Source of the DNA: [Clostridium] aerotolerans DSM 5434
GTDB taxonomy: Bacteria; Bacillota; Clostridia; Lachnospirales; Lachnospiraceae
Reading direction: 5' to 3'
DNA: 64,000 nucleotides
Assembly: GCF_000687555.1 (NCBI RefSeq)
Contig: NZ_JHWJ01000006.1
Span: forward strand, 124,001-188,000
The number at the start of each line of letters is the position of its first letter. Positions within the stretch are counted from its first letter, which is position 1. The notes under the pieces are model-generated. The model ran no database searches. It saw only the letters and a program-made list of their open reading frames with translations, and was not told the DNA's origin. Made by a program: the position numbers and the translations under genes. Positions 20,512 to 38,764 of this stretch are shown here, in pieces.

Positions 20512-20776
20512 TGGCAAGCTGTTTCTTTTAATTTTGCATGGGGGTTGATTTTTGAAAGGACAAGAAATGATACAATACAGACAAGGCTGACAAGAAAAAC
20601 AGTTTTATAAAGCGAGGATTTTAACCATTTAGAACAAGTTTCCTTGTTATAATATGAAAAAAATTTCATAAACTTATGTCCAATTGAATAGAAAATCGCA
20701 CAGAACCATTTTCATACGAATAAACTGAACTAAGAATAAAAATGAGTTGCATTTCAGGCAGTTTTCAGGAGTTCAT

Positions 20777-22471
20777 ATGGATAATAACAGTTACACAAAT
20801 GAAACCATGGTAAGCACTGGTTTACCTTATGATAATATAAACTGGTTTAATGTAGAAGGCCAGCCCTTTGGTCCTGCCTCCGGATTTAATGTTATTGTAT
20901 TTAATGATGCCAATAACATAGTGGATATTGAGGGGCCTGTGGCGATTGGCGGAAGTTTTTACAGCCCAAGGGGCTTAAGCGTTGGCTTTGCCAGAGACAG
21001 CCGTTTCAAAGAAATCGGTTACTCCCCGGATTTGGTACGTTTTTTAGTTGGCGGTAACGTATCAATGACGAAACCTCTGGTTGTTATTGGCCACGTAGTT
21101 GTCGGCGGTGGATTCCGTGCAGGCAATGGAAGTACCTACTTAATAGGAAAAGATGGCAACACAGATGGAATACCGAGATTAAAGGAATTATATCAGGCCA
21201 ATGGGGGCAGCCAATACTGGACCCCCACAGATAAGGGAGATCACTATGTGGTCCCCAGCTATGATGTTCCAAGGTTTATTCCTGCAAGCAGAGTAAATGC
21301 CAATTTACAGAAGTTCTTTAGTGATGCAAAAGAAAGCATTGGAAACTATAAAAGCTGTATTGAAGCATTAACTCCCAATGGTTCCGTCATAGATAACAAT
21401 TATGAATGGATTTTAAGGGGAAATGATCCTGTTCAGAACGTATTTCTTGTGGATGTAAGACCCAATGGTTTGATTAACAAAGGATTGCGTGCAGAAGTTC
21501 CACAGGGTAGTACTGTAATCGTAAGGCTGAGAACAGGCCCTAATGCACATCTGCAATACGGTCTTTACGGAGAGAGCAGTAAGGCGCGTAATACATTGTA
21601 TGTGTTTGAGGATGCGACAAATATTTATATGGAGAAATCCTCTGATATCTGGGGAAGCATTTTGGCACCTCAGGCCATGTTCCACGCCCACCCAACAGGA
21701 GGCCATGTAAGCGGCAATGCGGCCTTAGGATCCTTTGCGGTCAATGCAAACAGCGGGTTTGAATTTCATTTTTATCCCTTTGTCGGAGGAGTGAATTGTC
21801 AGGCTGTATCACCTGCTCCAGAACAACCAGCCCCGGAACAGCCAGCTCCATGTCCGACTTGCCCAACCTGTCCGGCACCTACGCCTTGCCCGACACCTAC
21901 GCCTTGCCCGACACCTACGCCATGCCCAGCACCTACGCCCTGCCCCGAATGTCCAACACCCAAACCGTGTCCGACACCAGAGCCCTGCCCAGTCTGCCCG
22001 ACACCAGAGCCTTGCCCAGAGTGCCCGGCACCGAAACCCTGCCCTGCTTGTCCGGTATGTCCGACACCAGAGCCCTGTCCAGCCTGCCCAGTCTGCCCGA
22101 CACCAGAGCCCTGTCCAGTCTGTCCGACTTGCCCGGAATGTCCCGCCTGCCCAGAGTGTCCCGCTTGTCCGGAATGCCCGGTTTGCGAGGAATGCCTGGT
22201 TAAACCTTGCATCATAAAGGGATGTATCTGGGGTTGTGGATGCAAGAAGTCTCATCAATGGGATGTAAAGCTATATAAGAGATGTGATGATACGGATGTT
22301 TTATTGTTTTGGATTCCCATTAACTGCTGGGGAGAGTTTGAATTTTCCGTACCATACGAAGGCTTTTATATCTTAAAAATAAGAATGGTTGAAAATTGTT
22401 GCAAGTCTTTCTGGTGCAAACCTATTATTACGCTTAAAAATATTGGGGTATCTGATTTTATGGTGGAATAG
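20777..22471 (+). CDS. choice-of-anchor A family protein with Cys-Pro repeat
   Basis: A 564-residue protein. The start at 20777 has a good site (caggag); a TTG at 20747 is less likely. Residues about 10-330 match the choice-of-anchor-A domain (INWFNVEGQPFGPASGFNVI, VAIGGSFYSPRGLSVG, VVIGHVVVGGGFRAGNG). About 344-478 are tandem Cys-Pro-x-Pro units, with Cys roughly every third to sixth residue. The last 85 residues form a separate Cys-containing beta-rich segment (WDVKLYKRCDDTDVLLFW) that looks like a small binding domain. No signal peptide or sorting motif is visible, so a spore surface or other lysis-exposed location is plausible but unproven. Confidence 0.75.
   Translation: MDNNSYTNETMVSTGLPYDNINWFNVEGQPFGPASGFNVIVFNDANNIVDIEGPVAIGGSFYSPRGLSVGFARDSRFKEIGYSPDLVRFLVGGNVSMTKPLVVIGHVVVGGGFRAGNGSTYLIGKDGNTDGIPRLKELYQANGGSQYWTPTDKGDHYVVPSYDVPRFIPASRVNANLQKFFSDAKESIGNYKSCIEALTPNGSVIDNNYEWILRGNDPVQNVFLVDVRPNGLINKGLRAEVPQGSTVIVRLRTGPNAHLQYGLYGESSKARNTLYVFEDATNIYMEKSSDIWGSILAPQAMFHAHPTGGHVSGNAALGSFAVNANSGFEFHFYPFVGGVNCQAVSPAPEQPAPEQPAPCPTCPTCPAPTPCPTPTPCPTPTPCPAPTPCPECPTPKPCPTPEPCPVCPTPEPCPECPAPKPCPACPVCPTPEPCPACPVCPTPEPCPVCPTCPECPACPECPACPECPVCEECLVKPCIIKGCIWGCGCKKSHQWDVKLYKRCDDTDVLLFWIPINCWGEFEFSVPYEGFYILKIRMVENCCKSFWCKPIITLKNIGVSDFMVE
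21850..22200 (+). repeat. tandem Cys-Pro-rich coding repeat
   Basis: Degenerate short units (6-9 bases in phase, tgcccgacacctacg and variants) encode repeats such as CPTPTPCPTPTP, CPTPEPCPVC and CPECPACPECPAC. The repetition also opens long false reading frames on both strands. Confidence 0.85.
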
Positions 22472-23420: not shown

Positions 23421-24206
23421 ATGGAATTAACTACCATCCTAGGCGTTATCGTCGGAGTTGTCGCTGTTGTTGGAGCGATGATTTTTAAGCACATTGATTT
23501 TGCTGTACTTTTAAATCCGGCAGCCTTTTTTGTAATTATTGTTGGCACCATCGCGACGATTTTAAATTCATTTCCAGGCAAAAATTTAAAAGCAGTCGGC
23601 TCTTTGTTCAAGATCCTTTTTACAAATAAGAAGGAAGCATCAGAGGCTGAGTTGATCGACTTAATTTATAATTTATCTAAGCAGGCTCGTTCCGAAGGTC
23701 TTTTATCCCTGGAAGCTAAGGTAGAAGAGATTCAGGACCCTTTTTTAAAGAAAGGGGTTCGATTGTTAGTCGATGGTACTGGAGCTGAGCTGATCGAAGA
23801 GATTTTAGAAACGGAAATAGCGGGAATCGAGAAGCGTCATGAAATCAATTCAAGTATTTTCTCCTCAGCTGGTATGTATGCTCCTACCCTGGGTGTATTG
23901 GGTGCGGTTTTCGGTCTGATTGCAGCCATGTCCCATATTAATGATACTGACCAGATGGCGGAAGCGATTTCTGCGGCATTTATTGCTACCATTTTAGGTA
24001 TCTTTACAGGCTATGTATTATGGAATCCATTTGCGAAAAAGCTTAAAGTTAAAAGCCAGCAGGAAATAATGACAAAAGAAATGATTATAGTAGGTATCTT
24101 ATCCATGCAGAATGGAGATTCTCCGTTTATTTTAAAAGAGAAATTACTTGCCTCTTTACCGAAATCTACACAGAAAAAAATTAACGGACAAGATAAAAAG
24201 GGATAA
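23421..24206 (+). CDS. motA: flagellar motor stator protein MotA
   Basis: A 261-residue MotA/PomA-type stator subunit that, with MotB, conducts ions to drive flagellar rotation. There are four membrane segments: two near the N-terminus (LGVIVGVVAVVGAMIF; AAFFVIIVGTIATIL) and two after the cytoplasmic loop (APTLGVLGAVFGLIAAMSHI; AAFIATILGIFTGYVLW). The loop carries the charged residues expected to contact FliG. Ribosome site aaaggag is good. It is 11 bases before motB. No other flagellar gene is in the window, so the stator pair is unlinked from the main flagellar cluster. Confidence 0.9.
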   Translation: MELTTILGVIVGVVAVVGAMIFKHIDFAVLLNPAAFFVIIVGTIATILNSFPGKNLKAVGSLFKILFTNKKEASEAELIDLIYNLSKQARSEGLLSLEAKVEEIQDPFLKKGVRLLVDGTGAELIEEILETEIAGIEKRHEINSSIFSSAGMYAPTLGVLGAVFGLIAAMSHINDTDQMAEAISAAFIATILGIFTGYVLWNPFAKKLKVKSQQEIMTKEMIIVGILSMQNGDSPFILKEKLLASLPKSTQKKINGQDKKG

Positions 24207-24217
24207 GGTGATTACGA

Positions 24218-25000
24218 ATGTCAAAAAAGAGAAAGCATGCACATCAGGAAGAGGAAGCTGGAGAAGCTTGGCTGCTGCCTTATTCCGACTTAATGACCCT
24301 TCTCCTGGCAGTTTTCATTGTACTTTTTGCGGTTAGTAAGATTGATGCCAGTAAAGCACAGGAGATGTCAGAACAGTTCGCCGCAGCCAACATGGATAAG
24401 AATTATACTGGCAATGGGTCAGGAAGTGGTAGTGGCAGTGGCGGCGGAGGTGGCGGCGGAGGCCCCTTAAATATTGAAACAAAAAGTGAGCTTGAGAGCT
24501 TTTTCGGAGAATATGAACTTAAAAAACTGGAAGCTTTAAAGACAGAGCTTGATACTAAAATCCACTCAGATGGTATGGACCAGTCTGCTTCCACCATGAT
24601 TGACATGCGTGGTCTGGTAATCCGGTTAAACAATGCGGTACTGTTTGAATCGGGAAGTGCAGAGATAAAAAAACACGAGGATACTTTGGTTGAAGTCGCA
24701 AGTATTCTGAATACAACAGATAACTACATACGTATTGAAGGCCATACAGATAATACTCCCATCAGACGGAGTCCCTATGCTTCCAACTGGGAATTATCCA
24801 CTGCCAGAGCGGTTAACGTGGTAAAGCTTTTCATTAACAAATGCAATTTCCCTCCGGATAAGCTGATTGCAGTAGGTTACGGAGAATATAAGCCGGTAGC
24901 AGACAATGGAACAGCAGAAGGAAGATCAAGCAACAGACGTATTGATATCATTGTTTTAAGTTCTAAATATAATAATCTGGAAGAACATCAAGTAAAATAG
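24218..25000 (+). CDS. motB: flagellar motor protein MotB (OmpA-type peptidoglycan binding)
   Basis: A 260-residue stator anchor. The single membrane span near 20-40 contains the ion-binding Asp24 in PYSDLMTLLLAVFIVLF. The OmpA-like peptidoglycan-binding domain lies in the second half (IRIEGHTDNTPI, NWELSTARAVNVVKLFI, GRSSNRRIDIIV). Between plug and OmpA domain is an unusual linker of alternating Gly/Ser followed by eight Gly (about residues 67-85), encoded by a G-rich run near 24415-24465. Other MotB linkers are more mixed in composition. It is followed by a good terminator, so motAB is a two-gene operon. Confidence 0.9.
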   Translation: MSKKRKHAHQEEEAGEAWLLPYSDLMTLLLAVFIVLFAVSKIDASKAQEMSEQFAAANMDKNYTGNGSGSGSGSGGGGGGGGPLNIETKSELESFFGEYELKKLEALKTELDTKIHSDGMDQSASTMIDMRGLVIRLNNAVLFESGSAEIKKHEDTLVEVASILNTTDNYIRIEGHTDNTPIRRSPYASNWELSTARAVNVVKLFINKCNFPPDKLIAVGYGEYKPVADNGTAEGRSSNRRIDIIVLSSKYNNLEEHQVK

Positions 25001-25067: not shown

Positions 25068-25106
25068 AACCAGTATCAGGATGGAATTCCTGGCACTGGT
25101 TTTTTT
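25068..25106 (+). terminator. terminator after motB
   Basis: The stem aaccagt...actggtt, with an inner tcagga/tcctgg helix, runs into seven T. It separates motAB from the polysaccharide operon. Confidence 0.85.
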
Positions 25107-25206: not shown

Positions 25207-26172
25207 ATGAACAGACTTTGTATTGTAGTACCCTGTTATAACGAAGAAGAAGCACTTGCATATACCAATAAGGAATTGACCAACATCATACAAAGGCTGG
25301 TGGAAGCGGGCAAGGTGGCACGCAGTAGCTTTATTCTATATGTGGATGATGGAAGCAAGGACGAGACATGGAATATCATAGAGAGGTATCACAAAGAGTC
25401 TCCCTTTGTCTATGGATTAAAGCTGACTAAAAATAGTGGTCATCAAAATGCGCTTACAGCAGGTCTTCTTGCGGCAAAGGATTACGGAGATATGATCGTA
25501 TCCATTGATGCTGATCTGCAGGATGATGTTTCTGTCATAGAAGAGATGGTTGATAAATTTATACAAGGCTATGATATTGTGTATGGAGTCAGAAAGAAAA
25601 GAGATACCGATACTTTTTTTAAAAGGACAACCGCCCTTGGTTTTTACCGGTTAATGCGGGCAATGAAGATTGATATTGTATACAACCATGCAGATTACAG
25701 GCTCATGTCTAAACGGGCAGTAGAGGTGTTCTCCCGTTATGAGGAGAGGAATCTCTTTTTAAGGGGAATCATTCCCTTAATTGGATATCGTTCCGCAGTC
25801 GTTACGTATGACAGGAAATTAAGGATTGCCGGTGAATCCAAATATCCTTTAAGCAAGATGCTTTCCATGGCTTTTGAAGGTATTACCTCCTTTAGCATTC
25901 AGCCAATCCTCATGATTACGAATCTTGGCCTGTTGATTGTGCTTTTTAGCATTTTGGCAGCTATCTATGGGTTTTATTCCTATTTATCGGGAAGGGTGGT
26001 AGCAGGCTGGACCTCTATTATTTTATCCATATGGTTTATCGGCGGGGTTCAGCTTCTGTCGGTTGGCCTCATAGGAACTTATATCGGAAAGATTTATATA
26101 GAAGTAAAACAGCGTCCCAGGTATAACGTGGAAATAAATAATCTTTTGGAGAAACAGCATGAAGAATCGTGA
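25207..26172 (+). CDS. GtrB/DPM1-like family 2 glycosyltransferase
   Basis: A 321-residue membrane glycosyltransferase that should move a sugar from a nucleotide donor onto a polyprenyl phosphate. The GT-A domain shows CIVVPCYNEEEAL, ILYVDDGSKDETW, IVSIDADLQDD (the DxD region) and a conserved RAVEVFSRYEERNLFLRG. Two C-terminal membrane helices (about 230-290) complete the GtrB architecture. It is the first gene of the 13-kb polysaccharide operon and overlaps the next gene by 14 bases. Its lipid-linked sugar would be a donor for the GT-C proteins of the operon. Confidence 0.88.
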   Translation: MNRLCIVVPCYNEEEALAYTNKELTNIIQRLVEAGKVARSSFILYVDDGSKDETWNIIERYHKESPFVYGLKLTKNSGHQNALTAGLLAAKDYGDMIVSIDADLQDDVSVIEEMVDKFIQGYDIVYGVRKKRDTDTFFKRTTALGFYRLMRAMKIDIVYNHADYRLMSKRAVEVFSRYEERNLFLRGIIPLIGYRSAVVTYDRKLRIAGESKYPLSKMLSMAFEGITSFSIQPILMITNLGLLIVLFSILAAIYGFYSYLSGRVVAGWTSIILSIWFIGGVQLLSVGLIGTYIGKIYIEVKQRPRYNVEINNLLEKQHEES

Positions 26173-27697
26173 AGAGTCATTTGCAGCCAGGCATCTTACC
26201 AGATTAATGACGTTTCTAAGTAAAATCAGGGGATTTTTAAGAAATGTGAATTTTAAGATGGAAGGCAGGTATTCCCCTTCCCGACTGGCTCTTCTTGTTA
26301 CGGTTATAACTGGGATAATTGCTTCCGTCATTCTCTTTTTACCCAATTATCTTGGAGTGGCAGGAGATGGTTCTACCGATGAGGTGATGAGATCAGCTGG
26401 TATTTATTATATGGAAAAAGAGCCGGACCTCATTTATAACAATTATTTTATAAAAACCTACTCAACCGTTGCATCGGGTGAGGATATACCGGGCAAGACT
26501 ATAAACAGCCAGGTAATTATTTTAAGGATAGCAAAATCTCTGGATTATTTATTTACAAGAGACCATTATTTTGATATCCGGTTTTTAGGACTTCTTTATC
26601 TGATCCTTTATCTTCCAGCCGTGTATCTCTTGATCCGGGAGGTATGTAAGCGGGTGAGACAATTTACTGAGGGAGCATTGATTGCGGCAGCCGGTCTCGT
26701 AATATTTTCTGATATCGGATACGTAACCTATTTTAACTCCTTTTATCCGGAAGCCATATGGCTCATTGCAATGCTTTACTGCGTCGGTGCCTCTATGTCA
26801 TTTCAAAAAGAACGGTCCGGCTACCGGGATTTTTTAAGTCTGATGCTGTTTTTATTCTCTGCAGTTATTTTAGTCAGCTCCAGACGCCAATGTGCAGTTC
26901 TTGGTTTTTTATTTGCCATATATGTCATCAGGCTTCTTTTTGTAAGAAGAAGCTTTCTCTGGGGAGTTAGCTGTATAGGAACTGCTTTTGTTCTCAGTCT
27001 GATTTCTATTTTATGTATTTTCATCTATCCGTCTGATTTCGGTGAGACCAGTAAATTTCATGCAATGACAAGAGGGGTATTATTCGTATCATCTAATCCA
27101 ACAGAAACCCTTGAGGAATTTGGGATTAATCCTTCTTATGAGCTGTTGACCGATTCCTCGGCCTACGATTATCTGCCCCTGGTAAAGGCAGGAGATGATT
27201 CTTTGTACCACGGATTTCTGGATCAATACTCTGCTTCTGACATAGCCGTCTATTATCTGCGCCATCCGGGAAGCATGTTAGGAATGATTGATGTATCCAT
27301 TGGAGCAGGAATGGATATCAGAAGAGGAAGCTGCGGAAATTATGAAATTTCTGCGGGTATGCCCTTAAAAGCGAAGAGCCTTTTCTGGTCCGGCTGGAGC
27401 ACCTTTAAGCTGATGTCGGCGCCTAAGACCATTGGTTATCTTGTTGTGCTTACGGGGTTTATCTTCTTCCTGTTTTTTAAAGGGTATTCCATTCGGCCTG
27501 GAGAAAATCGGAGGAACACCATTTTTTTAGATATGCTTATTACTGTTTTAGGGGTGCTGTTATCCCAGTCAATCATCGTGATTATTGGCAGCGGTGATGC
27601 TGAAATGGTTCAGCGAACCTTTCTGGTGGGACTTTCCCTTGATATTATGACGTATTGTGTGTTTGCGGAGCTGCAGCATAAGATAAAAATAGTTTAA
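26159..27697 (+). CDS. polytopic membrane protein, probable GT-C glycosyltransferase
   Basis: A 512-residue protein with about ten membrane segments. The first outer loop (NYLGVAGDGSTDEVMRSAG) carries acidic residues in the position where GT-C enzymes keep their catalytic Asp. It resembles WsfD-like hexose transferases of Gram-positive surface glycans, but that is a weak recall. The likely job is to take a sugar from the polyprenyl phosphate donor made by the preceding GtrB-like enzyme and put it on an extracytoplasmic acceptor. The start overlaps the previous gene and has a ggag site. Confidence 0.6.
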   Translation: MKNREESFAARHLTRLMTFLSKIRGFLRNVNFKMEGRYSPSRLALLVTVITGIIASVILFLPNYLGVAGDGSTDEVMRSAGIYYMEKEPDLIYNNYFIKTYSTVASGEDIPGKTINSQVIILRIAKSLDYLFTRDHYFDIRFLGLLYLILYLPAVYLLIREVCKRVRQFTEGALIAAAGLVIFSDIGYVTYFNSFYPEAIWLIAMLYCVGASMSFQKERSGYRDFLSLMLFLFSAVILVSSRRQCAVLGFLFAIYVIRLLFVRRSFLWGVSCIGTAFVLSLISILCIFIYPSDFGETSKFHAMTRGVLFVSSNPTETLEEFGINPSYELLTDSSAYDYLPLVKAGDDSLYHGFLDQYSASDIAVYYLRHPGSMLGMIDVSIGAGMDIRRGSCGNYEISAGMPLKAKSLFWSGWSTFKLMSAPKTIGYLVVLTGFIFFLFFKGYSIRPGENRRNTIFLDMLITVLGVLLSQSIIVIIGSGDAEMVQRTFLVGLSLDIMTYCVFAELQHKIKIV

Positions 27698-27749
27698 AAG
27701 TATGAAATCGGTTCCCTTAGATGTGGAAGAATAGGAGGAAAGAGGACAA

Positions 27750-28613
27750 ATGACAAAGCATAAATCGTATGGCTATCTGTTCCAGGATCTGGGGCTGGTC
27801 TTATTGCTCGCCTGTCTGTTTACAGGGGCATTGACCGTGAGCTACACGCCCAGACCATTGCTCTTTGAAGCAGTGCTTATGCTTCTTTTTATCTTTGGAG
27901 CACTACTTCTCACTGGCTTTAAGCTGTTTGGTCTGTCCATTGTGCTGTCTGGTCTGGAGGTCCTCATTTATACGGCTTACCGCCTCTATCTGTTTCTCGC
28001 CTATGAGACGGAAATTCCACTTATCAGCTTTGTGTGGATATTCCTTCCTATCCTATCCGTAGCAGCCATGTATTTGTTTGTTTCCGGCAATCGAAAACTG
28101 GAACTGGAAAATGATATCTTAAGGGAGCAGGTGGAGGAGCTGGTCATGGTGAATCCACTTACAAAGCTATATAACTTAAGAAGCTTGTATCATGATCTGT
28201 ATATTCAGGTATCCTATGCAGAAAGAAACAAGCTTCCCCTGTCCCTCATGGTCATTGTGCTTAAATACGAATCAGAGCTTAAAAGCATTTTGTCACGCCA
28301 GAATTATGAGAGGGTGATACAGCGTCTGGCTCAGATTGTATCCGATACCGTCCGGGTAGAGGACAAGACTTACTCTACCGATCACAAAGGAAGTCTGGCA
28401 ATTATCATGACCTGTGACAAGGAAGGAAGCGAAATTGCTATGGGGAGACTGCGAAGCCGGATTTCAGAAAGGGATGCTTTTTCTGACATTGCCGATCATG
28501 CCATTAAGATAGAAGTAAAAATGGCCAGCATGGAATACAGCAGAGAAGAGTTTGGAGATGACATGATGCAATTTAAGCAAAGGGTAGAAAATGAACTTCA
28601 ATACGATGTGTAA
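27750..28613 (+). CDS. membrane protein with degenerate GGDEF domain (PelD-like candidate c-di-GMP receptor)
   Basis: A 287-residue protein: four hydrophobic segments (about 8-115), a short coiled stretch, then a GGDEF-fold domain from about 130 (NPLTKLYNLRSLYHDL, compare the usual DPLTGLYNRR). The catalytic GGDEF loop is replaced by DHKGSL (211-216), so cyclase activity is very unlikely. An RxxD motif (Arg202-Val-Glu-Asp205) sits at the position of the inhibitory c-di-GMP binding site. Membrane helices plus an inactive GGDEF with an I-site is the PelD arrangement. In this operon it could sense c-di-GMP for the synthase. It has a strong ribosome site and overlaps the next gene by 23 bases. 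Confidence 0.75.
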   Translation: MTKHKSYGYLFQDLGLVLLLACLFTGALTVSYTPRPLLFEAVLMLLFIFGALLLTGFKLFGLSIVLSGLEVLIYTAYRLYLFLAYETEIPLISFVWIFLPILSVAAMYLFVSGNRKLELENDILREQVEELVMVNPLTKLYNLRSLYHDLYIQVSYAERNKLPLSLMVIVLKYESELKSILSRQNYERVIQRLAQIVSDTVRVEDKTYSTDHKGSLAIIMTCDKEGSEIAMGRLRSRISERDAFSDIADHAIKIEVKMASMEYSREEFGDDMMQFKQRVENELQYDV

Positions 28614-30207
28614 AAGATGGCTGATCTGTTTTGCCATGTATGCCTTATCCGCAATATACTGGCAGTCAGCGGTTTGGGCCGCGGATCATAAGCAGATAGA
28701 AAAAGGAGATATCCTCATTATTTACAGTGACGGTTCTGATAAAAATACGGGGAAGATGGTCTCTGATATGGTTGAGATTCTCACGTATCAAAGCTTTAAA
28801 GTAAGCTATGGAACTGCTGCTGAGTGTATGGATGATCTAAATAAATTCTCTTATGTTATCTGCTACGATATCACCACGTACCCCAGTGAATTTCCAGAAA
28901 AGCTTAGAGTGTATGAGGAGAATCACACCGGGGAGACGAAAGAAGGGGGTCATATCTTTTTTGTTGGCAATGAATTTTTAAAGGCTTATCTTGATCAGAC
29001 AGGAAGAGACCAGGCTTATGAGTACATCAATAGTACAACGGGTAAGATTCGTTATAACTTTGATGACCTGACCCAGCGGACCAGCATGGCAAAGGAACCA
29101 TTTTTTCTGTTTTTAAAAAGCTATAATTATAAAAATGGAAGTCTTATTGTAAGTGAAAAAGAAGGATATGCTTGTGCAAGAGAAGGAGCCCTGACTCATT
29201 TACCGGTAACGGATTTCGATGATCCACTGATAAAGGCTGTATTCATAAAAGAAGTAGCCCAGTGGAAATGGCCCTTTAATGGAAGCCCCAATATATTTCC
29301 TCAATATATTGTAATTAATAAGGTCTACCCCTATGAGGATCCAGAGAAGCTGATGGGCGTGGTTAAAATGCTGGTAAAAGGAAAGACACCATTTGTCATA
29401 TCAGTCATGCCCATGTATGTGAACGGGGATTATCCGGCTATGGTCCGCTTTTGTGAGATTCTTCGGTATGCCCAGGCAAATGGAGGAGCAGTTATTATCA
29501 ATGCCCCCATCAATCAGATGAATCCTTTTGATAAAAATGTTGTTCTGGATTATCTGGCTCAGGCCTTGGCGATCTACAACAAACAGGGAGTGTATCCTCT
29601 TGCCTTACAGGTGCCCCGTAATTGGTTATTTCACCCGGATACCATTGAGATCATGAGGCATTTTAAGACGATCGTCACCTCTAACGAGGAGGATCCTTAT
29701 CTTGATCCTTCAGAGGGGAACACCAATGAGGTCTATAAAGACGGTCATCAGTGGATTGGCAGTTCTGTGGCTCTTGACGATCTTGGTACAAGCTATGTTT
29801 CCGCTTATTCCACTGCAGTGTGGATTTCCATGGAAGAGGATCCATCTGAAATCCTGTCAAAGATCAATGCCTGCCGCAGCTCCAGGATTCCTTTAAAAAG
29901 CCTGTGGGATATGGAACACAGCTACTGGATGGAAAAGGATTTAATGACGTATGGAAATCAAGGTCTGATTCTCAATCAAAAGAAACAGGATTTGAGCTTT
30001 CTTCCAAGCACTTATGAGAAAAATTTTGATTATCACAGAAATATGCTCCAACGGTTTTCCAAGGACTTAACCTCTCAAAACCGTCTGCTGATTTTCATGG
30101 TGGGTATAACATCTCTGGTTTTTCTCCTGTTTATCTTGTTTGCCAGATACAACAACCGCAGAAATTATTTCTTTGGGAGCGGAGAAAAAGAGAAAGACCA
30201 GAGTTAA
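28591..30207 (+). CDS. DUF2334-type (polysaccharide deacetylase-fold) protein, active site degenerate
   Basis: A 538-residue protein with a signal peptide or anchor (about 8-30) and a C-terminal membrane helix (about 500-520), so the body is extracytoplasmic. Residues 40-200 form an alpha/beta domain (GDILIIYSDGSDKNTGKM); 235-420 match DUF2334 (VINKVYPYEDPEKLMGVVKM, TPFVISVMPMYVN). Canonical members have an RxDDV-type metal motif and HGYTH; here these read INKV (242-245) and NAPIN (304-308), so the metal ligands are missing. It may bind polymer rather than cleave it. It precedes the GT2 synthase gene by 41 bases. Confidence 0.72.
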   Translation: MNFNTMCKRWLICFAMYALSAIYWQSAVWAADHKQIEKGDILIIYSDGSDKNTGKMVSDMVEILTYQSFKVSYGTAAECMDDLNKFSYVICYDITTYPSEFPEKLRVYEENHTGETKEGGHIFFVGNEFLKAYLDQTGRDQAYEYINSTTGKIRYNFDDLTQRTSMAKEPFFLFLKSYNYKNGSLIVSEKEGYACAREGALTHLPVTDFDDPLIKAVFIKEVAQWKWPFNGSPNIFPQYIVINKVYPYEDPEKLMGVVKMLVKGKTPFVISVMPMYVNGDYPAMVRFCEILRYAQANGGAVIINAPINQMNPFDKNVVLDYLAQALAIYNKQGVYPLALQVPRNWLFHPDTIEIMRHFKTIVTSNEEDPYLDPSEGNTNEVYKDGHQWIGSSVALDDLGTSYVSAYSTAVWISMEEDPSEILSKINACRSSRIPLKSLWDMEHSYWMEKDLMTYGNQGLILNQKKQDLSFLPSTYEKNFDYHRNMLQRFSKDLTSQNRLLIFMVGITSLVFLLFILFARYNNRRNYFFGSGEKEKDQS

Positions 30208-30248
30208 AAAATCTGTTTCTTTCAACGTTTTAATTTATGGGAGGGTAT

Positions 30249-31550
30249 ATGTCAATTGTCGATGTACTGGCGTTGTATTCCATCTTTGCCATATGGGGAC
30301 TGATGTTTCTAAATATTATGCTTTCCATTGGCGGCTTTCTCTATATTATGAGGATGTACCGCACAGATGGTCATAAAGCAATTCCGGAATATCCAATGGT
30401 AACTGTCATGGTTCCTGCCCATAATGAAAGCATTGTGATTCAAAAGACCATGGAAGCTTTGATAAAGCTTGATTATCCCAGGGATAAATATGAAATCATT
30501 GTGGTCAATGACAATTCTACGGATAATTCCAGTGAGGTGCTAAAACAGATACAGCATGACAACCCGGAGTCCAGAATCATTGTAATCAATACGGACAATA
30601 TTGTGGGAGGAAAGGGAAAATCCAATGCGTTAAACATCGCACTTTCCGTGGCGTCAGGTACCGTAATTGCAATCTATGATGCCGACAATACCCCGGAACG
30701 GCAGGCACTTAAAATTCTCGTAGAGAATCTGATGTCAGATGATAAATTAGGTGCTGTAATCGGTAAATTCAGGACCAGGAATAAGTACGCTTCTCTGCTT
30801 ACCAGATTTGTCAACATCGAGACCCTTGCCTATCAGTGCATGAACCAGGCCGGACGATTTTTCTTTTTTAAGCTGTGTACCATACCTGGTACCAACTATG
30901 TAATACGAAGAGAGCTGATCGATCAGATGGGAGGCTGGGATGTCAATGCCCTTGCTGAGGATACGGAAATCAGTTTTCGACTGTACCGAATGGGATATTA
31001 TATTAAGTTCATTCCCCATGCAGTCACCTGGGAGCAGGAACCTCAGATCCTAAAACAATGGTTCAAGCAAAGAACCCGCTGGGTAAAGGGAAACTTATAT
31101 GTGCTGAAAAGCAATTTTAAATATGCGTTTGATCCGGAAGCCGGAAGAATGAGGCTTGATGTGATTTACTATGCCTTGGTCTACCTTCTGATGTTTACTT
31201 CCCTTGTTTTTTCCGATTTGATCTTTGTCATGGGAATTCTGGGTTTTTGGTATGTTACCCTGGGAGGCTTCTCTTCCCTTCTTTGGGAGATGGCTATTCT
31301 GTTATTTGTGTTAAATGTTGCAATTACCTTATCAGTAGAAAAAAATGAGTTTAATTTCAGCAACCTTTTACTTACCTTTGTTATGCTGTTTACCTATGCA
31401 AAGCTATGGGTGCTGGTGGTTTTAAACGGAATGATACAGGGCGTTCAGGACAGGCTTTTTAACAAGGAAGTCATATGGGATAAAACAGAGCGCTTTGAAG
31501 AAGACGGTGGGAAGAGAAAAGAGAAGAAAACTGGGAATACTAAGAAATAA
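30249..31550 (+). CDS. family 2 processive glycosyltransferase (BcsA/PgaC-like synthase, no PilZ)
   Basis: A 433-residue membrane synthase that probably polymerises and exports the polysaccharide. Motifs in order: MVPAHNESIVI, VVNDNSTDNS, AIYDADNTPE, LAEDTEISFRLYRMGY, and QRTRW at 274-278 (the processive-synthase signature). It has one N-terminal and three or four C-terminal membrane helices. The C-terminus is a short charged tail; the PilZ domain of BcsA is absent. The start at 30249 is chosen over 30237 because the gggaggg site lies between. It overlaps the BcsB-like reading frame. Product could be a cellulose-like or amino-sugar polymer. Confidence 0.85.
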   Translation: MSIVDVLALYSIFAIWGLMFLNIMLSIGGFLYIMRMYRTDGHKAIPEYPMVTVMVPAHNESIVIQKTMEALIKLDYPRDKYEIIVVNDNSTDNSSEVLKQIQHDNPESRIIVINTDNIVGGKGKSNALNIALSVASGTVIAIYDADNTPERQALKILVENLMSDDKLGAVIGKFRTRNKYASLLTRFVNIETLAYQCMNQAGRFFFFKLCTIPGTNYVIRRELIDQMGGWDVNALAEDTEISFRLYRMGYYIKFIPHAVTWEQEPQILKQWFKQRTRWVKGNLYVLKSNFKYAFDPEAGRMRLDVIYYALVYLLMFTSLVFSDLIFVMGILGFWYVTLGGFSSLLWEMAILLFVLNVAITLSVEKNEFNFSNLLLTFVMLFTYAKLWVLVVLNGMIQGVQDRLFNKEVIWDKTERFEEDGGKRKEKKTGNTKK

Positions 31551-31596
31551 GCTGGAGAATATGCCGCCGTTTGCGGAAGAATCGAGGATGATGATG

Positions 31597-33819
31597 ATGA
31601 AAATACAAAAAAAGCTTTGGGTATCTCTGGTACTCGTCCTTTTCATCTTAGAAGGGCTGGCACCCAGAGTATATGCAGATATCAGACCAACTGCTCAGAC
31701 AGTGACAAGTGGAAGACAGCCGGAAACGGAAAGTGAGGCTCCGCTGCTTCCTGTTGCTGATCCGGAGGGAGCGGCCGCGCCAGAAGTTACTGAGCCTGCC
31801 CATGATCCAACCACCTATACCCAGGATGATTTTTTTACTCAGAAAACCTTAAAAGGAATTTATTCGTCCGCTGATCTTTATTTCTTTGTGCCCACTTATT
31901 GGGATGTAAAGTATGTTTATGCGCAGATTCAGTATGATGTCAGCCAGCTTTTGGAAGGAAAGGCATCCTCCATCACTCTGTCAGTCAATGGTGTGCCCAT
32001 TCAGTCTTACCGCCTGGAGTATAATAACGGCAGTCCTCAGACTCTCTATGTAAAGATACCGATAAGTGAATTACGTGCTGGTTTTAACTCCCTGACCATT
32101 TCCGCTTATGCCAGGCTGTTTGATGAGGAAGGCTGTGTGGATGATGCTTCGGATGCCAACTGGCTTCGGATTTATGACACGTCCCATATCAGGAGCGGTT
32201 ATGAGGCCAAGGACCCGGAACACCGGATTTCTTATTATCCTTATCCATTTATGTCCACCTATAATCCCACGGGAAAAGGACTTACCATTGCTGTTTCCGA
32301 TCAGGCTGCTAATGGAGAGGTAGCTGCGGCTATGAATTTAATGGCGGACTTAAGCTCTGACACAAAAGTTAAAAATGAGATTGAAGTAAGCCTCTTATCT
32401 GATGTGGCAAATAAAAACACCACCAGAACCATACTGGTATCTACCTATGATAATCTTCCCCAGGAATATAAAAACCTGGTAGGCAAGGCTCCTGATTCTA
32501 CTGGAAATGCCACCGTGACATTTACCGATGATTCTCAGGGCAGACCGCTTCTCATTATAACGTCTATGGATGAAGATAGTCTGATAGAGGCTTCCAATAT
32601 GCTTATGGATGAAAACCGGGTGAAGCAGGAGAGTGGTCAGACTGCTGTCATAGAAAAAGGAAGCGGACAGATTGCCATGAACGCAGGGAAGCAAAGCGAC
32701 ATGATGGCAGGAAATTATACGCTGGAGGATATTATGGGCAGCGGACTGATGTTCGTCGGTCCCTTTCACCAGGATAATTACGTCTATCTTCCCGTAACTG
32801 GAGATTATGTTCTTTCAGAAGGGGGAAAAATAGCATTAAAATTCAGATACAGTGAGAACCTTGATTTTACAAGATCCTTAGTCACTGTATCCTGGGGAGA
32901 GATACCGATTGCCAGTAAACGCTTAAGCAAGGAAAATGCCTCCGGGGACGAGCTGAATTTTGAAATACCAGGGGATATTTTAGGTACGGCTGCAAGCAGC
33001 ATAAAGGTTTCCTTTGATTTAGAGATTGCAGATCTTATCTGCACACCAAGACAAAGCGATATGCCATGGGCTTATGTTTCCAAGGAATCCACTCTTTTCT
33101 TACCTCCTTCTAATGGGATAAATCTTTCCTTTGATGTAAAAGGCTCCCCGTTTCGAAATCAGGGGAAATTTAATCAGGTAATGCTAGTGATACCGGATAA
33201 GCCTTCTGGAGATGAACTGAACCTTCTTGGGCAGGTTGTAGCCATGTATAGCAGCGGAATAAAGCCCTATGGAAGTCTGCTCGTAAGAAAGGGCAGTGAG
33301 TTTCAAAAGGAGGATGGGGATTATAATATCATAACGGTAGGGACGTTTCTTGATAATAGCCTGATTGCCCAGATCAATGACAGCTTAAGCTTTCATTATA
33401 CCCCTGATGGGACGGGATTTGAAAGCAATGAGCAGCTTATTTTATCCAGAGACTACGCAGGACAAGTTGGAATCCTCCAGCTGATAAAATCCCCCTTTGC
33501 CTTAAACCGTGGATTACTTGCAGTTACCGGGTGCAGCAGCGAGTCCATATCTCACATCCAGGAATATCTAAGGCAAAGCAAGAAACGGGATGAGCTTAAG
33601 AAGGATTGTGTGATCATAGCACCTGATTCCAGCACCACTGCCTTTCAATTCATTCAAGGCACAGCAGCAAATGCAGAACCAGCCCCTATGGAAAAACTGG
33701 TCCAAAACAAAAGGTCTGTGATATTTACCATTGTTGCAACTTCAGCTATGTCCATGATGCTGGTTGCGGTTATCATCATATTGCTGCGTATCCGGATGTA
33801 TCGGAAACGAGACGAATAA
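31597..33819 (+). CDS. BcsB-like polysaccharide synthase partner protein
   Basis: A 740-residue extracytoplasmic protein with an N-terminal signal (KLWVSLVLVLFILEGL) and a C-terminal membrane anchor (near 705-730), the topology of BcsB. It has alternating carbohydrate-binding-like and ferredoxin-like domains (DDFFTQKTLKGIYSSADLYF, NSLTISAYARLFDEEGCVDD, and later SSIKVSFDLEIADL). Four consecutive ATG codons occur at 31588-31597; the last has GAGG 9 bases upstream, whereas an upstream frame start at 31495 would overlap the synthase gene. BcsB guides the polymer and activates BcsA through its tail helix, so this pair is the likely core complex. Confidence 0.82.
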   Translation: MKIQKKLWVSLVLVLFILEGLAPRVYADIRPTAQTVTSGRQPETESEAPLLPVADPEGAAAPEVTEPAHDPTTYTQDDFFTQKTLKGIYSSADLYFFVPTYWDVKYVYAQIQYDVSQLLEGKASSITLSVNGVPIQSYRLEYNNGSPQTLYVKIPISELRAGFNSLTISAYARLFDEEGCVDDASDANWLRIYDTSHIRSGYEAKDPEHRISYYPYPFMSTYNPTGKGLTIAVSDQAANGEVAAAMNLMADLSSDTKVKNEIEVSLLSDVANKNTTRTILVSTYDNLPQEYKNLVGKAPDSTGNATVTFTDDSQGRPLLIITSMDEDSLIEASNMLMDENRVKQESGQTAVIEKGSGQIAMNAGKQSDMMAGNYTLEDIMGSGLMFVGPFHQDNYVYLPVTGDYVLSEGGKIALKFRYSENLDFTRSLVTVSWGEIPIASKRLSKENASGDELNFEIPGDILGTAASSIKVSFDLEIADLICTPRQSDMPWAYVSKESTLFLPPSNGINLSFDVKGSPFRNQGKFNQVMLVIPDKPSGDELNLLGQVVAMYSSGIKPYGSLLVRKGSEFQKEDGDYNIITVGTFLDNSLIAQINDSLSFHYTPDGTGFESNEQLILSRDYAGQVGILQLIKSPFALNRGLLAVTGCSSESISHIQEYLRQSKKRDELKKDCVIIAPDSSTTAFQFIQGTAANAEPAPMEKLVQNKRSVIFTIVATSAMSMMLVAVIIILLRIRMYRKRDE

Positions 33820-33841
33820 CAAGTTTTGAATGAGGAATGGT

Positions 33842-35845
33842 ATGAAATTAGAAAAAAACTGGTTCTATTATTTATGCATCTCACTGTCCATTGTGGGCTT
33901 TGCCTATATATTGATCTGCGGCGTTTCGGAGATAGGAAATAGTCAGGAATATCCCTATGCAAGGAAAGGCATGCTCATCCTTGTCTTTTTCCTTACCTGG
34001 GTTGGAGTTCATTTTATCGCATTGCTGTTAGCAAGGCTTGATATCGGGACGAAGCTGGAAAAGAAAAAAACATTAATGATGGTGACAGAAGGCGCTTACG
34101 TGGTTCTGGTTCTCTGCGCGGCTTTTTTCCTTCGTTACGCAGTGATAACCCATCTGCCTATGGAGCCGGCCTCTGACTACAAAACTTATTATGAAGTTGC
34201 AGAAATGATGAAACGTGGTACGTTACAGGAGAAAGGGGAGGGATATTGCAACTACATTGCCATGTTTCCTCATATCATTGGCTATTGCTATATCTTAAAG
34301 CAGGTGTTTGTGCTATTTGGAACCAGCGTCTTTCATGGACAGCTTGCCAATGTTCTGTTTTCTGTTGGAACCGTTTTTATCATTTATCGGATCGCCAGGA
34401 AAATAGGTGGCAGGCTTCCAGGTGTAATTGCACTGACTGCAGCAGCTTTTTGGCCGTCTCAGATCCTTTATATCAATATGCTGGCATCTGAGTATTCCTT
34501 TTCATTTTTCCTTTATTTATCTCTCCTTTTATTTCTTCATCTTGTCATGGATTATCATGGGGATACGAAGCATGGAGTGAGAGGGTTCCTCCTTCATATT
34601 CTGTTAGGCTGTTTGATTGCTGTAACTTCTGCCATAAGGCCGATGGCATTGATTCTTTTGGTTGCCATTCTCATATGCATACTCCCCCTGAAAATGAGGC
34701 TGCCCAATATCCCCCAGAACAGCATTCCTGTTTTGGCTCAGCTTTTGGGAAAAGGCTGGGTCCGGGGGATTCTAATTCTGGCTTCCTATCTGATTCTATC
34801 AAACGTGCTGACCACAAATACAGAGCTTACCATTAACCGTTCCGTTCCTTCCTTTTCAGAATCCTTTGGCTACAATCTTCTGGTGGGATTAAATGAGAAA
34901 TCAAGGGGGGGCTGGAATGAGGAGGATTCTAAGTTTTTATATGAAAATCTGGAGCGAACCGGTTCTCCCATAGAAGCTCAGATTGCCTGCCGGAATGAGG
35001 CGATGAAGCGTATCAATGAAAATCCAAAGGCTTTGTTTGATTTATTTATAAACAAATATGAATTACTTTGGGGAAATGATGATTACGGTGTTACCTGGAA
35101 TCAGGCGTTTTTAAAGGAGCAGAATCATCTCACTCCAGAGCGGGCAGGTTTTCTTAATTGGGCCAGAGAAACAAATCATATGGTCTATATGGTATTTGCA
35201 TTGTTTTCCTTTATGACCCTCATATATCTGCTAAAGAGAAGCGCTTCTTATCTGTATGTCCCCATTCTTATCTATCTTGGAACCGTAGGAATGCACCTTT
35301 TGGTGGAGAGCCAAAACAGGTATCATTTTCATGTGCTTCCGGTTTTTATGATAGTTGCTTCCGTGGGAATTGGATATATTTTTGAAAATGCCGTAGGATT
35401 TGTGAAATCCCAGGATCTTATAAAGCAGGATAGAGATAAAGTAAAGCTTAAAGAAGATCTTTTATTAAAGCATTTTGAGGAAGAAGAGCATGAGGCAATT
35501 AAAACCCGCTACCAGAAAATGACCAATGCCTTTGATATGAAATCAGCCATTGATAAAGGAAATGTAATTGTAACCGTTTCGAAGAAATACATGGAAGACG
35601 CTCCTGTGAAAGAGAATGATATCACTGGGGAGACAGAAACAATGCCCCCTAAATCTCATGAGAAGGAAAGAGAAGAGCTGATCAATAAGATACAAACCCT
35701 GGAAAGCTCCAATCAGGAATTATTAAAAAAAGTGAATGCTCTTAAGAAAAAGACTGCAGGAAACTTAAAGCATACGAAAAAGCCCCCAAAATTATGGGAA
35801 AGAAAAAGAAAAGCGAACTCAAGTCTTTGGAGAAAGCCAAAATGA
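33842..35845 (+). CDS. GT39-like (PMT/ArnT-type) membrane glycosyltransferase with coiled-coil tail
   Basis: A 667-residue protein with about 11-12 membrane segments and a dolichyl/undecaprenyl-phosphate-mannose transferase-like layout. The first outer loop (THLPMEPASDYKTYYEVAEM) carries the acidic residues typical of GT-C catalysis. After the last helix is a cytoplasmic tail of about 140 residues, with a coiled coil (EELINKIQTLESSNQELLKK) and a very basic end. The tail is not usual in this family and may tether a partner. The start at 33842 is favoured by gagga just upstream. The stop overlaps the next gene's ATGA. Confidence 0.75.
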   Translation: MKLEKNWFYYLCISLSIVGFAYILICGVSEIGNSQEYPYARKGMLILVFFLTWVGVHFIALLLARLDIGTKLEKKKTLMMVTEGAYVVLVLCAAFFLRYAVITHLPMEPASDYKTYYEVAEMMKRGTLQEKGEGYCNYIAMFPHIIGYCYILKQVFVLFGTSVFHGQLANVLFSVGTVFIIYRIARKIGGRLPGVIALTAAAFWPSQILYINMLASEYSFSFFLYLSLLLFLHLVMDYHGDTKHGVRGFLLHILLGCLIAVTSAIRPMALILLVAILICILPLKMRLPNIPQNSIPVLAQLLGKGWVRGILILASYLILSNVLTTNTELTINRSVPSFSESFGYNLLVGLNEKSRGGWNEEDSKFLYENLERTGSPIEAQIACRNEAMKRINENPKALFDLFINKYELLWGNDDYGVTWNQAFLKEQNHLTPERAGFLNWARETNHMVYMVFALFSFMTLIYLLKRSASYLYVPILIYLGTVGMHLLVESQNRYHFHVLPVFMIVASVGIGYIFENAVGFVKSQDLIKQDRDKVKLKEDLLLKHFEEEEHEAIKTRYQKMTNAFDMKSAIDKGNVIVTVSKKYMEDAPVKENDITGETETMPPKSHEKEREELINKIQTLESSNQELLKKVNALKKKTAGNLKHTKKPPKLWERKRKANSSLWRKPK

Positions 35846-37452
35846 AACCAGTCCATCCATTGTCAAAACCAGAAAAAGTCTTATTTGCTATCCTCTGTAT
35901 TCTGGCTGTCACTGTAATTTCAGGCGGCATACTGCTTCTTGTCTACCCACCAGCAAAAAAACAGGTGCTAAATCAAGGGGAGGAAGAAAAGACAGAGGAT
36001 AATCTTCTTGATGATAAAACAAGCCTTCTGCCGGAATATTGTAATTTAAATGAAAAAATACCGGATATCTCATTTCAGGATGAAAACGGAAAAGAGGTAT
36101 CCATCCGGGACTTTGAAGGAAAAACTACTATCCTTACGTTCTGGGCCAGCTGGTGCCCGGATTGCCAGGAGGAGCTGTCGGTTATGAAGGAGTTGCTTAA
36201 GACAGCCGAAAAATACGGGGATATCAATTTTATACTGATCAATAAGCTGGATCATAGGAAAGAAACCAGGGAAAAGGCCAGCCAGTACCTGACAGAGCAG
36301 AAGATAGGCTTAAAAACGTATTATGACGATGGTCTGTCTGCCTATAAAACACTGGGATTACACAATATTCCAACCTCAATATTTCTTGATGAACAGGGGA
36401 TTATCCGGGCGTGGAGTCCCAGACAGATCACAGAGGCTTCTGTATTGGAGGGATATTTAAAGGATACCATAGAAGGAAGCGGTAAGGTGACCTGCGATTT
36501 TATTACAGGAAATATGATGGATGACAAAGGCGGAATCCACACAAGCTATGAAAGCTCCAAAGAACAAACAGAAAAGAGCGATGTTCTGAGCGAGACCCAG
36601 GGCGGGATGCTGGAATTTGCAGTATTAAACGATGACAAACAGCTGTTTGATAAAGTCTTTTCCTTTATTACCGATAAGATGAACTTTAATGGGCTGAACG
36701 CCTGGAAGATTTCAGGAGATGTGCCTGCCGATTCCAATGCCCTGCTTGATGATTTCAGAATTGTCAGTGCCCTCATATCAGCAGACCATTTGTGGGGCGG
36801 CTATGAGGAAGCAATGAGAGAATACACCGCTGCGATTGCCAGGTATGGTGTAAATAATGGACAGTATGTGGATTTTTATGACAGGAAATACAGGCAGTAC
36901 GCAACGCGGTTCACTCTATGCTACGGAGATCTTAAGACAATGTCTGAATTAGCAAAGCGGGATGAAACCTTAAAGGAGCCATATGAAAAAGCCAGAAAGC
37001 TGATTGAGGAAGGCAGAATCAGTGACAGCTTTCCTTTGTATTACAGCTGGTATAATTATAAGACCAGGGAGTATGAGAGGGACGATTTAAATACGGCGGA
37101 GGCACTTATCACGCTGTTACATCTGGCAGAAGCTGATATGCTTCCTAAGGAGAGCGTTGCCTGGCTGAAAAAAGAGATTTCCAGGGAAGGAATCAAAGCC
37201 CGCTATACGGTGGAAGGCAAGGCAGTGAACGGCTACCATTATGATTCCACAGCTGTCTATGCCCTGACAGCGATGATTGCCAGAGAAATTGGGGATAAAG
37301 ACCTGCAGGGAAAAGCCTTAAAGAAAATGGAAACCATGAGAATTGTTAATACATCTTATGCCTATCATGGAGCCTTTGGCATGGCTGATGGAACCGGTAT
37401 CATTGCCTTTGATCAGATCATGGCTATGCTGGCTTATGAATATACCAGGTGA
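35842..37452 (+). CDS. membrane-anchored thioredoxin-fold/GH8 glycosidase fusion
   Basis: A 536-residue protein numbered from the ATG at 35842, which overlaps the previous stop (ATGA); a start at 35794 lacks a ribosome site. An N-terminal membrane anchor (ILAVTVISGGILLLVY) is followed by a TlpA/ResA-like redoxin domain with WASWCPDC (Cys105, Cys108). From about 245 it matches GH8, the family of bacterial cellulose-operon endoglucanase BcsZ: SETQGGMLEFAV holds the general acid (Glu251) and ADSNALLDDFRIVSALISA resembles the family's D-rich motif (Asp297, Asp303). It likely trims or edits the operon's polymer outside the cell; the purpose of the redox domain is unknown. Confidence 0.82.
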   Translation: MKPVHPLSKPEKVLFAILCILAVTVISGGILLLVYPPAKKQVLNQGEEEKTEDNLLDDKTSLLPEYCNLNEKIPDISFQDENGKEVSIRDFEGKTTILTFWASWCPDCQEELSVMKELLKTAEKYGDINFILINKLDHRKETREKASQYLTEQKIGLKTYYDDGLSAYKTLGLHNIPTSIFLDEQGIIRAWSPRQITEASVLEGYLKDTIEGSGKVTCDFITGNMMDDKGGIHTSYESSKEQTEKSDVLSETQGGMLEFAVLNDDKQLFDKVFSFITDKMNFNGLNAWKISGDVPADSNALLDDFRIVSALISADHLWGGYEEAMREYTAAIARYGVNNGQYVDFYDRKYRQYATRFTLCYGDLKTMSELAKRDETLKEPYEKARKLIEEGRISDSFPLYYSWYNYKTREYERDDLNTAEALITLLHLAEADMLPKESVAWLKKEISREGIKARYTVEGKAVNGYHYDSTAVYALTAMIAREIGDKDLQGKALKKMETMRIVNTSYAYHGAFGMADGTGIIAFDQIMAMLAYEYTR

Positions 37453-37475
37453 AAATGAAAACGAGGTGATATTGC

Positions 37476-38579
37476 ATGAAACGCATTATGGTGGTATTTG
37501 GGACAAGGCCGGAAGCCATTAAAATGTGCCCTCTTATCAAAGAGTTAAAAGAACGGAAAAATGCACAAGTAAGTGTTCTGGTCACAGGTCAGCACAGGAA
37601 AATGCTGGATCAGGTGCTAAATGCTTTTGAAGTAATTCCGGATTATGATCTTTCTATTATGAAGGAAAAACAGACATTGTTTGAAATTACAGCCAACATA
37701 CTAAATGGGATCAGAAGTATTTTGGAAAAGGAGCGCCCGGATCTGGTACTGGTTCACGGAGATACCACCACGACCTTTGCCACGGCCCTGGCCAGCTTTT
37801 ATTTACAGATTCCCGTTGGTCATGTAGAGGCAGGACTTAGAACCTATGATATCTATTCTCCCTATCCGGAAGAATATAACAGACAGGCAGTCAGCATTGT
37901 CGCCCGGTATCATTTTGCGCCAACGGAACAGGCAAAACAAAATCTCATAAAGGAAGGAAAAGACAGGGACAACATATATGTGACCGGTAATACCGCCATT
38001 GATGCTCTGAAAACAACCATAAGAAAGGATTACAGCCATGAGGAGCTGACATGGGCCTTGGGAAGCAGAATGATCCTTTTGACTGCCCATAGGCGGGAGA
38101 ATATCGGAAAGCCCATGGAAGGTATCTTTCACGGAATTAAAAGGATTTTGGAAGAAAATCCGGATGTAAAAGTCATTTATCCCGTCCATTTAAATCCTCT
38201 CATCAGGGAGATTGCAGGCTCTGTTTTTCAGGATGAGGAACGGGTTCATCTGATTGAGCCTTTGGATGTACTGGACTTTCACAACATTCTTGCAAGAGCC
38301 TATCTCGTTTTAACAGACAGCGGAGGAATCCAGGAAGAGGCGCCAAGCCTTGGAAAACCGGTACTTGTCCTGCGGGATACCACAGAACGGCCGGAGGGAA
38401 TCAAAGCAGGTACACTTGCCCTGGTAGGGACGAAAGAAGAAGCGATCTACCAATCCATAAGAAACTTGCTTCACGATAAAGCAGCCTACAATAAGATGTG
38501 TCAGGCCAGTAATCCTTACGGGGATGGCTTTGCCAGCAAACGAATCGCAGATATACTGCTGGGAGAGAACGAATCATAG
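37476..38579 (+). CDS. wecB: UDP-N-acetylglucosamine 2-epimerase (non-hydrolysing)
   Basis: A 367-residue cytoplasmic enzyme interconverting UDP-GlcNAc and UDP-ManNAc. Family motifs are clear: VVFGTRPEAIKMCPLI, LVLVHGDTTTTFATALA, GHVEAGLRTYD, TAHRRENIG and LTDSGGIQEEAPSLGKPVLVLR. The length is normal. It is the last gene of the polysaccharide operon, 23 bases after the GH8 fusion, with ribosome site acgagg. Its presence suggests that ManNAc, or a derivative, enters the product or a lipid-linked intermediate. Also known as mnaA in Gram-positives. Confidence 0.93.
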   Translation: MKRIMVVFGTRPEAIKMCPLIKELKERKNAQVSVLVTGQHRKMLDQVLNAFEVIPDYDLSIMKEKQTLFEITANILNGIRSILEKERPDLVLVHGDTTTTFATALASFYLQIPVGHVEAGLRTYDIYSPYPEEYNRQAVSIVARYHFAPTEQAKQNLIKEGKDRDNIYVTGNTAIDALKTTIRKDYSHEELTWALGSRMILLTAHRRENIGKPMEGIFHGIKRILEENPDVKVIYPVHLNPLIREIAGSVFQDEERVHLIEPLDVLDFHNILARAYLVLTDSGGIQEEAPSLGKPVLVLRDTTERPEGIKAGTLALVGTKEEAIYQSIRNLLHDKAAYNKMCQASNPYGDGFASKRIADILLGENES

Positions 38580-38764
38580 AAATGTCCAATTATGGAGCAG
38601 AAAATTCCGAAAATTCGTGAATAATGAAATTGCATGAATGAAATATATAGTGTAGAATCTTCTTTAAGATCAGGTGCTTCCTATGTAATTGAGAAACAGC
38701 GGACTCATGATTAGAATTAATAACATTACAGCATAAGATTTGATTGGAAAGCGGAGGATTCATC

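Follow-up and report, generated by a model that had tools for sequence, protein, structure and literature searches.

A putative YdaK/PssE-type c-di-GMP receptor in a pss/yda operon of [Clostridium] aerotolerans, with relatives beside heptose-like genes

In a 64,000-nucleotide stretch of DNA from [Clostridium] aerotolerans DSM 5434 (the window in what follows), a gene for a membrane protein with a degenerate GGDEF domain lies inside a polysaccharide operon whose GT2 synthase has no PilZ domain, which raises the question of what this protein is and whether c-di-GMP might reach the synthase through it. A preliminary description, made from the sequence, had seen it as a PelD-like receptor in a hybrid Pel/Bcs design. 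Our analysis points to a different ancestry: the protein is very probably the clostridial orthologue of YdaK and PssE, a catalytically dead, membrane-anchored c-di-GMP receptor that would activate a PssC–PssD synthase. This reading is based on homology, gene content, residue conservation and predicted fold, and binding, activation and product are taken over from the orthologues.

The operon and its relatives

The operon comprises nine genes on the + strand, running from 25207 to 38579 and either overlapping or spaced by fewer than 60 nt. They are given here with the element that precedes them.

25076..25093, + strand: terminator-like hairpin in the interval between motB and the operon (consensus match only)
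25207..26172, + strand: polyprenyl-phosphate GT2 (PgfS/ArnC-like), first gene of the operon (PF00535, E 7.3e-26)
26159..27697, + strand: WsfD-family membrane hexose transferase, PssA counterpart (NCBIfam NF051875, E 7.6e-126, above cut-off)
27750..28613, + strand: predicted receptor, YdaK/PssE orthologue (Pfam, predicted model, alignments)
28591..30207, + strand: DUF2334 protein, PssB counterpart (PF10096, E 6.5e-8)
30237..31550, + strand: GT2 synthase without PilZ, PssC counterpart (56% identical to L. innocua PssC across 416 aa)
31594..33819, + strand: BcsB-type subunit, PssD counterpart (PF03170, E 8.2e-47; the start codon is our choice, the ORF opening at 31495)
33830..35845, + strand: PMT-like (GT-C) membrane glycosyltransferase (PF13231, E 1.6e-5, slightly below cut-off)
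35794..37452, + strand: fusion of a TlpA-type thioredoxin with GH8 in a single frame, likely YdaJ counterpart (PF00578, E 2.6e-15; PF01270, E 7.5e-6)
37476..38579, + strand: WecB, UDP-GlcNAc 2-epimerase, a source of UDP-ManNAc (PF02350, E 4.9e-123)

Every gene of the Listeria pssA–E set has a counterpart in this operon. In L. innocua the run consists of pssA, in two open pieces, followed by the genes for DUF2334, GT2, BcsB and PssE. Besides the GT2 match listed above, the WsfD protein shows 30% identity over 257 aa to the first open piece of pssA, the BcsB-type subunit 28% over 671 aa to PssD, and the DUF2334 protein 33% to PssB over 70 aa only (E 1e-11). The start of the DUF2334 gene overlaps the end of the receptor gene by 23 nt. 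In its product the segment INKVYPY stands where Listeria PssB has ITDVNPF, and judging from these residues an Asp with a putative catalytic role in the deacetylase fold may have been lost. The receptor gene is third in the window and last in Listeria, and the Listeria stretch examined shows no GH8 match.

A similar picture is obtained with B. subtilis ydaJKLMN, whose products we take to be a GH8 enzyme (YdaJ), a DUF2334 protein (YdaL), a PilZ-less GT2 (YdaM) and a BcsB-like protein (YdaN) in addition to YdaK. Both operons pair a glycosyl hydrolase gene with exopolysaccharide (EPS) synthase genes, but the window has the order WsfD-K-L-M-N-PMT-J-WecB, adds genes for the lipid-sugar GT2, WsfD, PMT and WecB, and has an extra thioredoxin domain on its GH8 protein. 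This domain carries a CPDC motif; the fusion aligns over some 535-550 residues in many clostridial loci, and relatives across the phylum over 190-332 residues. With BcsA/BcsB systems the operon shares a GT2 plus BcsB export machinery. Unlike BcsA, with its C-terminal PilZ domain, the window GT2 gave no PilZ match (PF07238) in the Pfam scan, in agreement with the preliminary description, and c-di-GMP sensing would reside in a separate protein. The combination of DUF2334, PilZ-less GT2 and BcsB genes that characterizes the operons of YdaK/PssE receptors is thus present.

We searched a phylum sample of 398 genomes with an alignment of the window protein and other family members, and at a threshold of E 1e-20 the receptor was present in 15, the window's own genome among them, with a PssC-type GT2 adjoining it in 15 of 15. 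Of the 14 further loci, 13 carry BcsB (the contig of the other one stops short of it), all 14 have a GH8 match, and a DUF2334 gene was detected in 12. Loci L093-L103 have the order GH8-receptor-DUF2334-GT2-BcsB, which corresponds to J-K-L-M-N (with DUF2334 undetected in L102 and L103, and the L098 contig ending before BcsB), L090 and L091 show a GH8 gene followed by the Listeria gene order, and L092 has WsfD-receptor-DUF2334-GT2-BcsB-GH8, the order of the window. Among 397 genomes of the window's family the receptor occurs in 7 (E 1e-30) and BcsB in 5 (E 1e-10), and all five BcsB genomes also carry the receptor (hypergeometric p 2.6e-10, an optimistic value, as it assumes independent genomes and two share a genus). 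Scanning named genomes, we obtained 52 receptor loci: 32 of the pss type, one (L046) with matches to WsfD, the receptor and DUF2334 only, and 19 in another context, to which we return below. PssC is found in 32 of the 32 pss-type loci and BcsB in 31, the contig of the remaining one ending early. The pairwise homologies, the gene orders and the co-occurrence of BcsB with the receptor together identify the window operon, on sequence grounds, as a pss/yda operon.

Some of the additional genes recur in these loci. A relative of the first gene, which probably makes a lipid-linked sugar donor and scores 231 bits with the NCBIfam PgfS model (under the cut-off of 500), is present in 15 of the 32 pss-type loci, and a WecB relative in 18, several others ending short of that position. 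The motAB genes (23421-25000) lie upstream in just two of the 32 (L005 and L006; some loci end before this position), and owing to this rarity and to the terminator-like hairpin in between we take their proximity to the operon as chance. A GAF-GGDEF gene at 39897 was likewise rejected as a member, since two ORFs (38744-39082 and 39234-39845) intervene. Riboswitch control was considered and discarded, no Rfam family reaching the gathering score in a scan of the whole window. Elsewhere in the window, inspection by eye showed a large protein (20747-22471) in which Cys and Pro recur in a long repeat region and, on the minus strand, an isolated lysozyme-like (endolysin-like) gene (6773-7375).

Identity of the receptor

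The receptor has 287 residues, and its sequence, the Pfam match and a predicted model together give four transmembrane helices, a coiled coil and a degenerate GGDEF domain. A crude hydropathy scan gives three merged stretches, compared to four helices in the model, where helix 4 leads directly into the GGDEF fold. The GGDEF position reads DHKGS (residues 211-215) in place of the GG(D/E)EF of active diguanylate cyclases, R202xxD205 occupies the I-site position five residues ahead of the degenerate motif at 211, and the C-terminal tail is LQYDV. The four membrane helices, the GGDEF fold with its degenerate motif and the R202/D205 pair are therefore as they had been described.

Aligned end to end, the receptor and L. 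innocua PssE are 27% identical across 280 aa (E 8e-30); both have the C-terminal YDV, and the receptor comes with counterparts of pssA-D. A tblastn search gave three matching records, each with Listeria PssE, at 26% identity over 97% of the query. The nearest named locus is that of Clostridium sp. 12(A), 99% identical, followed by Lacrimispora species. Protein searches for distant relatives named B. subtilis YdaK in none of the matches listed (120 of 294 in one search, all 22 in another), and our comparison with YdaK goes by published residue numbers rather than by sequence alignment. The YdaK papers place the secondary site at R157-R160 and the primary site at R202-D205 (PMC5422440), and describe four transmembrane helices and an I-site that mediates interaction with DgcK (PMC7064775); to that extent YdaK and the receptor agree, with four helices, a degenerate GGDEF domain and, five residues ahead of its motif, the I-site pair R202/D205.

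What the orthologues do is known in some detail. According to the Listeria report, PssE is an I-site receptor with the degenerate motif DKDDA, which binds two c-di-GMP per monomer with a Kd of 0.79 uM and is indispensable for the Pss polymer (PMC4125290). For YdaK, it is reported that R202A and D205A, the very variants that the preliminary description had proposed to make, both abolish EPS (PMC5422440), that R202A breaks the DgcK interaction, and that HDX reveals a ligand-driven change across the whole GGDEF domain (PMC7064775).

The residues concerned are strongly conserved. R159, R202, D205 and R233 do not vary among the 54 receptors compared (the 52 scanned loci, the window and L. innocua, some of them near-copies), the residues that replace GGDEF do, and the patterns used to scan for the 52 loci contained none of the four positions. 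By PleD and WspR numbering, we take the RxxD and the later Arg to be the primary I-site and R159 to be the secondary site. In the 14 further phylum receptors RxxD and R159 are kept throughout, and R233 is replaced by Lys in six. P0186, a distant PssE-like protein, has lost both RxxD residues; its hydrophobic N-terminal part is retained, as is the tail LQYDV. The conservation of RxxD in homologues, on which the preliminary description had staked its reading, thus holds in 54 of 54 and 14 of 14 but breaks down in this distant relative.

P0186 suggests that the role of a relative can be independent of ligand, and by extension the window protein might be a structural partner of the synthase that has given up c-di-GMP binding. 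We consider this improbable, as none of the 54 receptors deviates at the I-site quartet, in contrast to the drifting remnant of the catalytic motif, and the orthologues bind c-di-GMP.

PelD sits in the membrane and has a GGDEF domain that is inactive, with an I-site; between the membrane part and this domain it carries a GAF domain. A reading of the receptor as a PelD that has moved into a Bcs-type operon could draw on the first three of these features, and on an activation of EPS synthesis that by analogy the window protein would share. PelD is named as the c-di-GMP receptor of Pel (PMC7112194), and the Listeria authors had already likened PssE to Pel's I-site receptor (PMC4125290). Descent from PelD is nonetheless very hard to sustain. 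The sole match of the receptor in an hmmscan against all of Pfam, at E up to 0.05, is PF00990; there is neither a GAF match at that threshold nor a GAF domain in the model, and PelD_GGDEF (PF16963), though included in Pfam, is not matched. Moreover, the operon contains none of the pel genes (pelE/F/G/A), the synthase is a different one, and the homologue recovered by the searches is PssE. PelD chains were also absent among the 50 matches listed by Foldseek and by VIA-align, which by itself is no proof. The proposed hybrid is not a new design either, since the same kind of receptor and operon has been published as YdaK with ydaJKLMN and PssE with pssABCDE.

That the receptor is an active diguanylate cyclase, as its general GGDEF family match and the names of relatives in some database entries could suggest, is next to impossible, with DHKGS in place of GGDEF and a first strand, which in active cyclases carries a metal-binding aspartate, that reads VIVLKYESE.

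We thus return to the YdaK/PssE assignment. The design and mechanism of this type of receptor are already published, and the window receptor is a further case, in Lachnospiraceae; a literature search gave no paper on a Lachnospiraceae member among the matches listed.

Proposed control of the synthase

As a YdaK/PssE orthologue, the receptor would be held in the membrane by its four helices and would bind c-di-GMP, probably as an intercalated dimer, at the I-site formed by R202, D205 and R233, with R159 as a secondary site. The ligand-bound form would then activate the PssC(GT2)–PssD(BcsB) synthase in the membrane, which would make and export an exopolysaccharide, and the PgfS-like GT2 and WsfD would probably decorate the polymer via a lipid-linked sugar. 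By analogy with the orthologues, it is most likely that the receptor binds c-di-GMP and switches on exopolysaccharide. The notion of a separate membrane receptor serving the synthase, also advanced in the preliminary description, is the best reading of a gene context in which a PilZ-less GT2 and BcsB adjoin a membrane protein whose GGDEF domain is inactive and carries an I-site. The backbone likely contains ManNAc, given wecB in the operon and the 56% identity of PssC to the Listeria enzyme, whose polymer is cited as a ManNAc chain with Gal (PMC5422440).

The messenger should be available, since the genome contains 19 GGDEF matches, including the receptor, and 5 EAL matches. It also has 3 PilZ matches and one BcsB match. 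ORFs 833 and 757 residues long (L104:2213-4714 and L105:1811-4084) account for two of the PilZ matches; by eye and from these matches they are probably GT2-PilZ synthases, so that fused and separate sensing designs probably coexist in one genome.

A second context for the receptor

Receptor homologues also occur in some genomes without the synthase, and the family therefore does not always serve it. The 19 loci set aside above (L036-L038, L040-L045, L047-L056), all from Lachnospiraceae and five of them rumen-titled, have the receptor in a GDP-heptose-like operon. All 19 have an NAD sugar epimerase after the receptor on the same strand, followed by an HddA-like kinase in 17 and an HddC/GmhB-like fusion in 16; most continue with a GmhA-like isomerase and a transaldolase. 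On the upstream side there is whiA in 18, rapZ in 15 and often, by eye, an HPr-like gene. Of the NCBIfam models, only general phosphatase-domain models and the transaldolase score above the curated cut-offs; the heptose models fall below theirs, for which reason GDP-heptose is a likely reading of these sequences only. The adjacency and co-orientation of receptor and heptose-like genes are shown, and a regulatory role for the receptor there would be a guess.

R159, R202, D205 and R233 are kept in all 19 of these receptors. Thirteen of the 19 genomes were tested. None has a PssC relative at E 1e-25, against 2e-215 or better in two control genomes, and BcsB occurs in one of the 13, where it adjoins a GT2 with a weak MshEN match; each of the 13 has between 16 and 48 GGDEF matches. 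In a 44-row tree, of which the root and long branches are unsure, 14 heptose-context receptors form one group (94/91, below the starred level) inside the clostridial receptors (96/97). A literature search on GDP-heptose, c-di-GMP, HddA and Lachnospiraceae gave nothing on a heptose-linked receptor among the matches listed.

The receptor also occurs as an orphan. A receptor-like gene of this sort belongs to a further genome of the family (G233), its placement in the tree being uncertain; at L067:7566-8390 the orphan gene, with RxED kept, lies between what by eye are an AraC-type regulator and a beta-glucosidase-like gene. At L068:3912-8358 a GT2 adjoins BcsB and its N-terminal part weakly matches MshEN, below cut-off, a possible third route of c-di-GMP sensing into a BcsAB-like synthase.

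The two contexts also differ at the C-terminus: all 34 pss-type receptors have YDV, and none of the 19 heptose-context ones has the final V. One could imagine that the LxYDV tail is part of the synthase contact and decays where the synthase is gone; this stays a weak idea, because one of the two scan patterns included the tail and YDV is missing in 4 of the 14 synthase-linked phylum receptors. We would offer, tentatively and as rather doubtful, the broader suggestion of a portable c-di-GMP module, which in one Lachnospiraceae group would have lost the synthase and would control heptose supply or use, and whose tail may be the contact to the synthase elsewhere.

The c-di-GMP-controlled polysaccharide system of Bacilli thus appears to extend to Lachnospiraceae and other Clostridia. 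The full I-site signature can be used for annotating YdaK/PssE receptors, for which the label of diguanylate cyclase in some database entries is very likely wrong. The heptose lineage outweighs the finding in the window itself, as it retains a conserved receptor without a synthase, beside heptose-like genes, and raises the question of other outputs; if the suggestion is true, control of heptose would be a second output of the YdaK/PssE receptor family.
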